Source: Flavobacteriaceae bacterium
GTDB taxonomy: Bacteria; Bacteroidota; Bacteroidia; Flavobacteriales; Flavobacteriaceae
Reading direction: 5' to 3'
NCBI GenBank assembly: GCA_013001965.1
Contig: JABDLA010000096.1
Span: 1 to 43,574, forward strand
Length of the DNA: 43,574 nucleotides
Both the position numbers and the translations under genes were made by a program. Of this stretch, positions 12,823-29,524 are shown in pieces. Within the stretch, counting starts at the first letter, position 1; each line of letters starts with the position of its first letter. The notes under the pieces were generated by a model. The model saw only the letters and a program-made list of their open reading frames with translations. It was not told the DNA's origin and made no database searches.

Positions 12823-12827
12823 CGGCC

Positions 12828-13134
12828 AAGCAGATCGCCTTATCGCTGTCTCGTTTAACGAGATGGAGGAAAGTCCGAACACCATAGTGCAGCATAGTGG
12901 TTAATGGCCACCGATCGTGAGATTAGGAAAAGTGCAACAGAAAGAATGTACAGGTTAAGCTGTAGTGAAATCAGGTAAACTCTATGTGGTGCAATGCCAT
13001 GTATACCAGCGCTTGAGCGTGGCACGCGCAATGCTGGTGGGTAGGCAGCTAAAGTGTATTGGTAACAATTCACTCAGATAAATGATAGGGATCACCTATA
13101 AGGTGATACAGAATTCGGCTTATAGATCTGCTTA
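12828..13134 (+). ncRNA. rnpB: RNase P RNA (class A)
   Basis: Conserved GAGGAAAGTCCGAACACC, GTGCAACAGAAAGAA and ACAGAATTCGGCTTATAGATCTGCTT. 5' AAGCAGATC pairs with 3' GATCTGCTT to close the P1 helix. Confidence 0.96.
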
Positions 13135-13141
13135 AGCATAA

Positions 13142-22195: not shown

Positions 22196-22738
22196 ATGCG
22201 CTGGCTTTCCAAATTCATTTATTATAAAATTCTAGGCTGGAAGGTTACCGGGTTCACCGATTTCGAATCCGTTAAAAAGGCTGTTATTATTGCAGTTCCG
22301 CATACGAGCTGGCATGATTTCTACATAGGCATTTTATTACGCTCGGTGATTGGCATCAAATCAAATTTCGTTGGAAAGAAGTCCTTGTTTAAATTTCCCT
22401 ATGGCTGGATTTTCCGAGCGCTTGGTGGTGCACCCGTGGAACGCAAATCGAATGAAAATCAAGTGCAGGCCATTGCACGATTGTTTGCAGAAAAGGACGA
22501 ATTCAGAATGGGCATGGCGCCAGAAGGAACCCGCAAGAAAGTGGAGGAGTGGCGTACCGGCTTTTATTATATCGCTAAGGAAGCCAAGGTCCCAATTGTA
22601 ATGTTCACACTCGATTTTGAGCATAAGGAAAACCGATTTTCAGAACCCTTTTATCCTACTGACGATAAAGCGGCCGATTTTAAATTCATGAAGGATTTCT
22701 TTAAAGGCGTGAAAGGTAAAGTACCCGAATATTCATGA
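22196..22738 (+). CDS. PlsC-like 1-acyl-glycerol-3-phosphate acyltransferase family protein
   Basis: HX4D motif (PHTSWHDF), APEGTRKK motif. Confidence 0.85.
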   Translation: MRWLSKFIYYKILGWKVTGFTDFESVKKAVIIAVPHTSWHDFYIGILLRSVIGIKSNFVGKKSLFKFPYGWIFRALGGAPVERKSNENQVQAIARLFAEKDEFRMGMAPEGTRKKVEEWRTGFYYIAKEAKVPIVMFTLDFEHKENRFSEPFYPTDDKAADFKFMKDFFKGVKGKVPEYS

Positions 22739-22739
22739 G

Positions 22740-23345
22740 TTATTCATGAGACCAGGAATTTTCATCACTTTTATCGCTGGGCGACAGACCTAAGACTTCA
22801 CCATTGGTAGTTACACCCAATCCCAGCACGGTTCTATTGGCATAATTAAAATAGGACACCACTTGATTTACCTCCAGAATCTCGCCATCATCGATATGCA
22901 ATGCTTTTAATTTAGTGATATCATCCTCCGTCATTGATCCTATGGCTAAGGTCAGTTTCTTAGCATAATTGACCAGGGCGACTTCCTTTTCGCTTAATAG
23001 TTCCTTTAAACTGTCATTCAGAAGATGTTTTTTCAACTCATATGCTTTTTCATCATCATTTAAAAAACGGCGCAGCCCGGCAAAATGATGGTCAAAGCAG
23101 TAGTCACATTTATTTAACAGACTTGTATAGGTGCCTAATAATTCCAAAAACCAATTTGGAAATGTATTATTTGAATGATGCAAGGTGTTTTTATACAAAC
23201 TCATATGACCTACAAGCGTATGTGGTCTTAAACTATGAATGCCAAGAACGTTATCAATTTGATCATTCGGGCCTTTAATCTTGTCATAAATAGATTTAAG
23301 TTTGCCAGTAGCTTCATTTAAGGGAATAACTTTTATCCAACTCAT
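22740..23345 (-). CDS. Peroxidase-related enzyme, carboxymuconolactone decarboxylase/AhpD-like
   Basis: NKCDYCFDHH (CxxC...H) motif in an alpha-helical AhpD-like context. Confidence 0.8.
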   Translation of the reverse strand: MSWIKVIPLNEATGKLKSIYDKIKGPNDQIDNVLGIHSLRPHTLVGHMSLYKNTLHHSNNTFPNWFLELLGTYTSLLNKCDYCFDHHFAGLRRFLNDDEKAYELKKHLLNDSLKELLSEKEVALVNYAKKLTLAIGSMTEDDITKLKALHIDDGEILEVNQVVSYFNYANRTVLGLGVTTNGEVLGLSPSDKSDENSWSHE

Positions 23346-23758
23346 GATGTTCTGTCTTTTGATCGATAAACAAATTTTAAACCGCTCCAGTCCTCATCAA
23401 TGGCCGCAACCTTAACATCAACCAAACCGTTGTCAAGAAAATAATTGCGTATCATGTCTCTTTTTATGGTGGTTTTGATAGCAGAGCCTCCTTTTGGCCA
23501 GCTTACCCAGAGCATACCGTTTTTAACCAGAGCAGATTTATAATGCCTGACCACATTTTCAAGATCCTGCTCGTCAGTACAAAAAACATGGATAAAATCG
23601 GCCGATTCATTTTTCTCAATGGATGCCTGCTGAAGTTCGATCTCCAATGTGTTGAACCATTTCATATAATTTGATGGTGCATTATAGAGTACATAGCGAA
23701 AATCGGGTTTGAGCCCAAGTTTCCGCGCTAAGGGTGTTCCCGAATATCCGGATGTCAT
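23342..23758 (-). CDS. DUF3052 family protein
   Basis: MTSGYSGTPLARKLGLKPD and GMLWVSWPKGGS pattern; 4-nt overlap with downstream gene. Confidence 0.8.
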   Translation of the reverse strand: MTSGYSGTPLARKLGLKPDFRYVLYNAPSNYMKWFNTLEIELQQASIEKNESADFIHVFCTDEQDLENVVRHYKSALVKNGMLWVSWPKGGSAIKTTIKRDMIRNYFLDNGLVDVKVAAIDEDWSGLKFVYRSKDRTS

Positions 23759-23820: not shown

Positions 23821-23836
23821 TGGCACGGGATTTGCA
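23821..23836 (+). promoter_or_regulatory. Sigma-54 (RpoN) promoter, -24/-12
   Basis: TTGGCACGGGATTTGCA: TGGCAC-N5-TTGCA, with GG-N10-GC spacing exact. Confidence 0.75.
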
Positions 23837-23867
23837 ATTTTTTTTGTGGGTTTAATTAATACAGTAA

Positions 23868-23960
23868 ATGAAACATAAATTAAACATGATTCATGTCACT
23901 AAAAAGAAACATTTACAATTATTAAATAACCATATAAATAACCGCTTCATTCCCCAATGA
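23868..23960 (+). CDS. Candidate 30-aa microprotein in the sigma-54 transcript
   Basis: MKHKLNMIHVTKKKHLQLLNNHINNRFIPQ, ATG to TGA; final codons and stop lie inside the terminator hairpin. Below ORF-track size limit. Confidence 0.35.
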   Translation: MKHKLNMIHVTKKKHLQLLNNHINNRFIPQ

Positions 23961-23973
23961 GGCGGTTTTCTAT
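23940..23973 (+). terminator. Intrinsic terminator
   Basis: AACCGCTTCATT-CCCC-AATGAGGCGGTT (one T/G wobble) followed by TTCTATTT. Confidence 0.8.
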
Positions 23974-24474
23974 TTAGAAGCGCTCTTTTTTGGTCGTTTT
24001 TTTCTTCTCTTTAGAATCTTCAGAACTCAACCCCGGAAATATTAATGTCGAACTGGAAAACGAGGTCCCAAAGGTGATATTTGAAGCGTATACCTGACTT
24101 ATGGCGTCGATCAGCTGTTCTTCACTCAACTCTTTAAGCGGATGAATGTATACCGTCCAGAGAATATCATTAGAAATGGCATATTTAACATCAAGAGCCG
24201 TATGAAAATTTGCGGTCAGACAGGCATTTTTGAGTTCTTCACTCAGCTGGAAGGTCTCCATTATTGGAGAAATAATGCGCATTCTGTTATTGCCCAAGTC
24301 TGTAAAGCACATCAGGCTAATATCCTTGACGTAAAATTGCCATCGTCCCGGCTCACCTTCAATTGAATCACTGACCTTTTCAAAAATCTCAGCCAATTTT
24401 TCATTAGACATGTTTTGTGATGGGGCAATGCTAAAGCTCAGGCACAACACTAATAAAAGCACAGTTGTTTTCAT
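23974..24474 (-). CDS. Secreted protein of unknown function
   Basis: Signal peptide (MKTTVLLLVLCLSFSIAPSQ); lysine-rich C-terminus. Confidence 0.7.
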   Translation of the reverse strand: MKTTVLLLVLCLSFSIAPSQNMSNEKLAEIFEKVSDSIEGEPGRWQFYVKDISLMCFTDLGNNRMRIISPIMETFQLSEELKNACLTANFHTALDVKYAISNDILWTVYIHPLKELSEEQLIDAISQVYASNITFGTSFSSSTLIFPGLSSEDSKEKKKTTKKERF

Positions 24475-28441: not shown

Positions 28442-29524
28442 TTAGGCCTTGTAGAAAGGCAATTTGACAATGGTAGCAGGAACGGCATTTTTACGGATCT
28501 GAATATTGATCTTGCTGCCAACATCCGAGAATACAGCAGGTACATAGCCCAATCCGATGCCTTTTCCTAAACTGGGACTCATGGTCCCTGAAGTTACATT
28601 ACCAATTGTTTTTCCCTGGCTATCAACGATATCATAGCCTTGTCTGGGAATACCACGATCATCCAATTCAAATCCAACTAATTTGCGTTCCGGTGTACGG
28701 CGCTTCTCATCTTCAAGTGCTTCACTATTTGTAAAGGCCTTATTAAATTTACAGATCCAACTTAATCCGGCCTCGATAGGAGAGGTGGTGTCATCAATAT
28801 CATTGCCATAAAGACAATAACCCATTTCCAAACGCAAGGTATCTCGGGCAGCTAGGCCAATTGGTTTTATGCCATAATCTTTACCGGCCTCCATCACCTT
28901 GTCCCAAACCTGTTTCACCTCCGAATTCTTGCAGTAGATCTCAAATCCTCCGCTTCCTGTATAACCTGTTGCCGATATGATGACATGTTCAATTCCCGCA
29001 AAATCACCGACCTCAAAATTGTAAAATTTGATCTCAGACAGGTCATGACTTGTCAATGATTGCATGGCTTCAACGGCCTTCGGACCTTGAATTGCGAGCA
29101 GTGAATAATCTTCTGAAAGATCCCGCATTTCGGCTCCAACATCATTTTTGGATGAGATCCAATTCCAATCCTTTTCAATATTACTGGCATTGACCACTAA
29201 TAAATAGGTATCGTCCTTAACCCTGTATATAATGAGATCGTCTACAATGCCACCATCATCATTAGGCAAACAACTGTATTGTGCTTTGCCTATTGTCAGT
29301 TTTGATGCATCATTGCTGCTCACCTTTTGAATGAGGTTCAAAGCATTTGGTCCTTCGATTAAAAATTCACCCATATGCGATACATCAAAAACGCCAACAC
29401 TCTTTCTAACAGTTTCGTGTTCAATGGTGACACCTTCATATTGAACTGGCATATTATATCCTGCAAATGGTACCATTTTTGCACCAAGTGCTTCATGTGT
29501 TGATGATAAGGCCGTATTTTTCAT
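28442..29524 (-). CDS. gcvT: Glycine cleavage system aminomethyltransferase
   Basis: [60 protein letters not shown]. Confidence 0.96.

Follow-up and report, generated by a model that had tools for sequence, protein, structure and literature searches.

In Proteobacteria, the short RNAs Qrr, GlmY/GlmZ and CrcZ are transcribed under the control of RpoN and enhancer-binding proteins, sometimes from several gene copies, and several of these sigma-54 sRNAs act together with Hfq. CsrB/RsmZ are protein-sequestering RNAs with GGA hairpin loops, a module that also occurs in leader RNAs. In Bacteroidota, post-transcriptional control is poorly known, with no classical chaperones such as Hfq and few known sRNA partners. 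The paralogous sRNAs FopS and GibS of Bacteroides are transcribed with the primary sigma factor, act on susC mRNAs through a 5' seed and are bound by the RRM protein RbpB (PMC11697453). In Flavobacterium psychrophilum, the mapped sigma-54 regulon comprises stress, gliding and envelope genes and the putative regulatory RNA Rfp36, an intergenic RNA with a predicted sigma-54 (SM4) promoter, and a further intergenic RNA of this species, Rfp18, affects protease mRNA levels (PMC9723704). This regulon is the closest experimental support for promoters of the type described here. An earlier note on this DNA called short transcripts that depend on sigma-54 alone poorly described in Bacteroidota; with Rfp36, however, the phylum already has a precedent for a putative regulatory RNA under a sigma-54 promoter (PMC9723704).

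The window, i.e., the whole stretch of 43,574 nt that was analysed, contains a perfect sigma-54 -24/-12 element with GG-N10-GC spacing in a gap between two minus-strand ORFs (23342-23758 and 23974-24474), followed by a strong hairpin and a T tract, exactly as the earlier note had claimed. The features of the locus are listed in Table 1. The pattern TGGCAC-N5-TTGCA has one exact match in the window, the site at 23821, compared with a chance expectation of 0.03. The looser pattern TGGCA-N5-TTTG is also found only once, but 0.74 matches are expected by chance, so the site taken alone is suggestive and the case rests on conservation. A sigma-54-like site with one mismatch lies at 29468-29483 (+) within a minus-strand ORF, and the number of such sites corresponds to chance. 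The genome encodes rpoN and two strong enhancer-binding-protein ATPase domains (PF00158), both of which the earlier note had proposed to look for. The predicted transcript folds at -28.9 kcal/mol with a z-score of -4.29 relative to its shuffles, and its terminator may at the same time terminate the convergent gene on the minus strand, which ends at 23974.

Table 1. Features of the RNA locus in the window; the invariance of the loop strands is to be read with the qualification given in the text.
Feature	Position	Strand	Description
Sigma-54 -24/-12 promoter	23821..23836	+	TGGCACGGGATTTGCA; GG 23822-23823, GC 23834-23835; exact consensus, single in the window; same site type upstream of 113/207 family members
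Predicted noncoding transcript, ~129 nt	23847..23975	+	start ~12 nt (+/- 2) past the -12 GC, end in the T tract; predicted from promoter and terminator
Basal hairpin extension, GGUU..UUAAUA with UAUUAA..AACC	23849..23931	+	23849-23861 with 23920-23931; minimum-energy fold
Conserved core	23863..23917	+	P1 23864-23869 with 23911-23916; internal loop; P2 23884-23888 with 23892-23896
30-codon ORF	23868..23960	+	MKHKLNMIHVTKKKHLQLLNNHINNRFIPQ; stop codon within the terminator stem; regarded as a chance by-product of the conserved RNA sequence rather than a gene
Internal loop, 5' strand	23870..23883	+	GAAACAUAAAUUAA (family consensus GAAACAUAAAGUAA); nearly invariant in 205 copies, length constant
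Internal loop, 3' strand	23897..23910	+	CACUAAAAAGAAAC (family consensus CNCUAAAAAGAAAC); nearly invariant in 205 copies, second base excepted
Intrinsic terminator	23940..23975	+	12-bp stem and CCCC loop (hairpin 23940-23967), then TTCTATTT; hairpin kept in the closest relative

A BLAST search of the 231-nt region against 60 relatives returned one full-length homolog (84% identity over 159 nt) and, in about 12 further genera, short high-identity matches to a single 45-nt stretch. The matched loci consist of TGAAACATAAAGTAAAC, a variable middle and GTCCCTAAAAAGAAACA, usually with TGGCAN5TTTG before and a terminator after them; the closest relative keeps the promoter as TGGCACGAGATTTGCA. When folded singly, the members mostly adopted one shape, with an outer stem, a symmetric internal loop of conserved letters and a small apical stem. 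The family core is accordingly composed of a covarying outer stem (P1), a symmetric internal loop of 14 + 14 nt and a covarying apical stem (P2), and the covariance model matches the window copy at 23862-23918 with 60.9 bits. In 14 sequences, 33 double-change cells were counted in the stems compared with 11.5 in shuffled and 4-14 in slid controls. The 84 model matches gave 269 compared with 96.8 and 32-86, respectively, with 83% of the cells paired, in an alignment which was fitted to the covariance model and thus leans towards it. These counts cover P1 and P2 of the core. The basal extension belongs to the minimum-energy fold, and the long-leader subfamily shows a similar 5'-end pairing. The same stem pairs are supported by 20 distinct phage sequences. 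Where both loop strands are intact (205 copies), their length is constant and their letters are almost identical, an invariance that is overstated, as the underlying set of 207 copies was gathered partly with the exact loop-strand pattern; the 84 covariance-model copies show the same loop conservation with slightly more variation.

At the gathering threshold, Rfam 15 matched nothing at the site, the only match in the window being an ordinary RNase P RNA of bacterial class A (12827-13138, +, 214 bits). At a relaxed threshold, the best match at the site was CyaR with 29.7 bits, where 47 are needed. None of 13 relatives matched an Rfam family, and no paper containing the core sequence was found by searching the literature text. 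The RNA of the window is one copy of a structured family that is absent from Rfam, and its identity as a noncoding RNA is well supported by the comparison of sequences.

The earlier note had offered two readings of the transcript, an sRNA or an mRNA for a 30-aa peptide, and had proposed to compare promoter, hairpin and ORF among related genomes. The first reading is strongly supported, as promoter, fold and terminator are kept across genera. The ORF does not share this conservation, and its reading frame, length and start codon vary among the relatives, so a conserved small-protein gene was rejected. The lengths of the segment between the two conserved strands are distributed evenly over the three reading frames (73/69/63 in 205 copies), and the ATG is missing in 39 of these 205 copies. 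Among the 85 sigma-54 relatives that do have an ATG, the frame closes after 6 to 42 codons, and the nearest relative yields just 19 residues. A small mRNA could be suspected because the conserved core begins with an ATG and this genome encodes a basic peptide, but with neither frame, length nor ATG kept and an inter-strand segment that is free modulo 3, this comparison refutes it as a conserved function, and we give it hardly any credence.

A -24/-12 site was present at most 55 nt upstream in 113 of the 207 distinct copies, compared with 0.4% of random positions in the same loci, and in 53 of the 84 copies found by the model alone. The family promoter profile is TTTGGCAY..TTTG. A terminator-like hairpin follows in 108 of the 113 sigma-54 copies, and the RNAs predicted for these 108 relatives are 83-136 nt long (median 104). 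rpoN was detected in all 151 Flavobacteriaceae genera. The downstream gene lies on the opposite strand in 92 of the 113 sigma-54 members, and cis-regulation of that gene was rejected for the sigma-54 class for this reason. Many sigma-54 loci have an acyltransferase gene upstream; in the window, an acyltransferase is located at 22196-22738, and the locus is probably the same ancestral one with two further genes in between. A search for enhancer-binding-protein sites upstream was uninformative, because the enriched words largely represent the 3' coding end of a conserved acyltransferase gene.

The RNA is widespread in marine flavobacteria. With the covariance model (E 0.01), 66 of the 151 Flavobacteriaceae genera proved to carry it, a genome having at most five copies, and the named carriers include Winogradskyella, Psychroserpens, Algibacter, Lacinutrix, Tenacibaculum, Lutibacter and Arenibacter. 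Among 346 genomes across the phylum, the sole matches were seven members of the Flavobacteriaceae. As more than half of the genera have no detectable copy, the family can evidently do without the RNA. Model matches did not exceed chance level in 41 genomes of the largest Flavobacteriaceae genus sampled, taken to be Flavobacterium. Divergent members in this genus were considered and rejected, since the matches had E-values of 0.01 or worse and the two that were inspected were unlike the core.

Other core copies are preceded by GTGAC..TGTCTTA boxes, which are ECF-like, or by TAnnTTTG boxes, which are primary-sigma-like and occur in tandem arrays of Tenacibaculum-type genomes. The present genome has three copies, the one in the window and two in tandem on another contig (1442-1501 and 1749-1808 in locus L071), and a separate GTGAC..GTCT(T/A)A box precedes each of these two, which suggests that paralogs within one genome use a different sigma factor. 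The description of the RNA as dependent on sigma-54 alone, made in the earlier note, is thus correct for the window copy and too narrow for the RNA domain, since its paralogs are found behind promoters of other types. Tenacibaculum-type arrays (L215, L207, L244 and L178) carry two to four copies spaced by about 375-620 nt, with TATCTTTG directly upstream of the copies and no conserved ORF in between. In L110, L164, L173, L181 and L200, the core lies within a long terminator-like stem (AAAAGCATT..AATGCTTTTT); the L110 copy comes after a pepD-like gene, so a 3' untranslated region can harbour the module.

Exact copies of the core are also present in 32 viral contigs from IMG/VR (L297-L328), one in each stretch examined, for example at L324:9789-9849 and L303:7864-7924. 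Three viral contigs were checked with ten proteins; two have terminase and other phage genes and one has a ParB-like protein. L324 and L303 are clearly phage, as judged from terminase, helicase or tail genes, and a search for named phage genomes similar to two viral loci found none. Most of the 32 viral copies directly follow a TATATTGC-like box, which resembles the F. psychrophilum motif SM5, TAnnTTGY (PMC9723704), and in many cases a small ORF or a tRNA-like gene comes next. The tRNA-like genes just downstream of the core (L313:5385-5505, L301:1542-1658, L324:9848-9969, L311:9952-10073 and L319:7044-7165) are 117-122 nt long, score 33-39 bits with the Rfam tRNA model and contain a long insert around the anticodon arm; ARAGORN did not call them at these five loci.

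The position of the phage copies at transcript starts, ahead of tRNA-like or small genes, would agree with an RNA of the put type, employed by phages and taken over by the host, that attaches to RNA polymerase and enables it to pass terminators. We regard this as very improbable, since the element in 108 of 113 sigma-54 host copies is closely followed by an intrinsic terminator, usually with a convergent gene beyond it. A 5'-end stabiliser or processing signal is somewhat easier to envisage, although still unlikely; the hairpin would protect any transcript, including phage leaders, from a nuclease or be cut by one, in agreement with its location at or near the predicted 5' end in the sigma-54 genes, the Tenacibaculum tandems and most phage copies. 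However, simple stabilising hairpins need no fixed internal loop of 28 nt, and the sigma-54 genes carry only a terminator after the hairpin, so there is no cargo to protect.

Both strands of the internal loop are fixed in letters and size between stems that are free to change, and the loop looks like a binding site for a protein or a ligand. The main rival is a classical trans-acting antisense sRNA, in which one A-rich loop strand would be the seed for U-rich sites near start codons, as in FopS/GibS. It accords with an independent gene having its own promoter and terminator and with multicopy paralogs sharing a constant A-rich segment, for which FopS is a precedent (PMC11697453). In a 1.7-Mb sample, less than a whole genome, complements of 10-mers from the 5' strand also occur slightly more often than expected close to start codons (7 compared with 2.1), a value reached by 18 of 200 shuffled seeds, and loop-complementary sites near start codons show no clear, convincing enrichment in this sample. 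An antisense seed needs one strand only, whereas here both opposite strands are fixed and always lie between two stems, which favours a binding module, and the copies in terminator stems and phage leaders fit a pure trans-seed poorly. We hold the antisense explanation to be a serious one, yet considerably less probable than a binding module.

We consider it fairly probable that the RNA is a regulatory sRNA induced through sigma-54 and that its internal loop acts as a recognition module, the most likely partner being an RNA-binding protein. Sigma-54 RNA polymerase would be opened by an enhancer-binding protein, the signal being, by analogy, stress or surface contact. The product would be an RNA of the predicted length, comprising one imperfect hairpin and the terminator, the stems of the hairpin being free to drift while the two-sided loop that they enclose and present stays constant in sequence and size. 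Hfq was found in none of the 151 Flavobacteriaceae genera, this genome included, and RRM_1 had no match in this genome (87% complete), so the putative partner would lie outside the usual candidates, being neither Hfq nor an RRM protein of the RbpB type. Production of the module may tie up or recruit this protein, sequestration being the simplest action; paralogs under other promoters would couple this output to further signals, and the module on phage RNAs may compete for the same partner or exploit it. More tentatively, and with less confidence than in the recognition module itself, the loop might be the site for an undescribed flavobacterial RNA-binding regulator, with the sigma-54, ECF-like and primary-sigma copies as signal-specific sponges and the phage copies serving to obey or escape the regulator. 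If true, the phylum would have a counterpart of its own to the Csr/Rsm logic, one that came to light through its RNA.

The importance of the locus lies less in an orphan transcript than in one copy of an uncatalogued RNA family with a putative partner. The family is a candidate for a new Rfam entry, and it extends the sigma-54 regulon of flavobacteria by a noncoding product. Given the strong covariation, the fixed loop, the many named hosts, the different promoter classes and the phage copies, a single pull-down with a 60-nt RNA could find the partner.

With a GG-N10-GC promoter, rpoN and an enhancer-binding protein in the genome, and a noncoding, self-contained and terminated transcript, the locus has by its sequence the features of the sigma-54 sRNA class. 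Qrr, GlmY/GlmZ and CrcZ have no known sequence or structural likeness to the flavobacterial RNA, which, unlike the Hfq-using sRNAs of Proteobacteria, occurs in genera without Hfq. With CsrB/RsmZ, it shares the proposed logic of producing a protein-binding module that is also found in leader RNAs, but the motif is different, there is one module per RNA and the partner is putative. Rfp36 and Rfp18 are likewise flavobacterial intergenic RNAs, Rfp36 also with a predicted sigma-54 promoter; they are probably unrelated, as judged from the chance-level model matches in the genus taken to be Flavobacterium rather than from the Rfp sequences. FopS/GibS differ from the present family, in which most promoters are of the sigma-54 type, conservation centres on a two-sided internal loop and this 87%-complete genome has no RRM_1 match, but both are multicopy short noncoding RNAs with a constant segment in Bacteroidota lacking Hfq, and a phage copy has been reported for FopS/GibS as well (PMC11697453).
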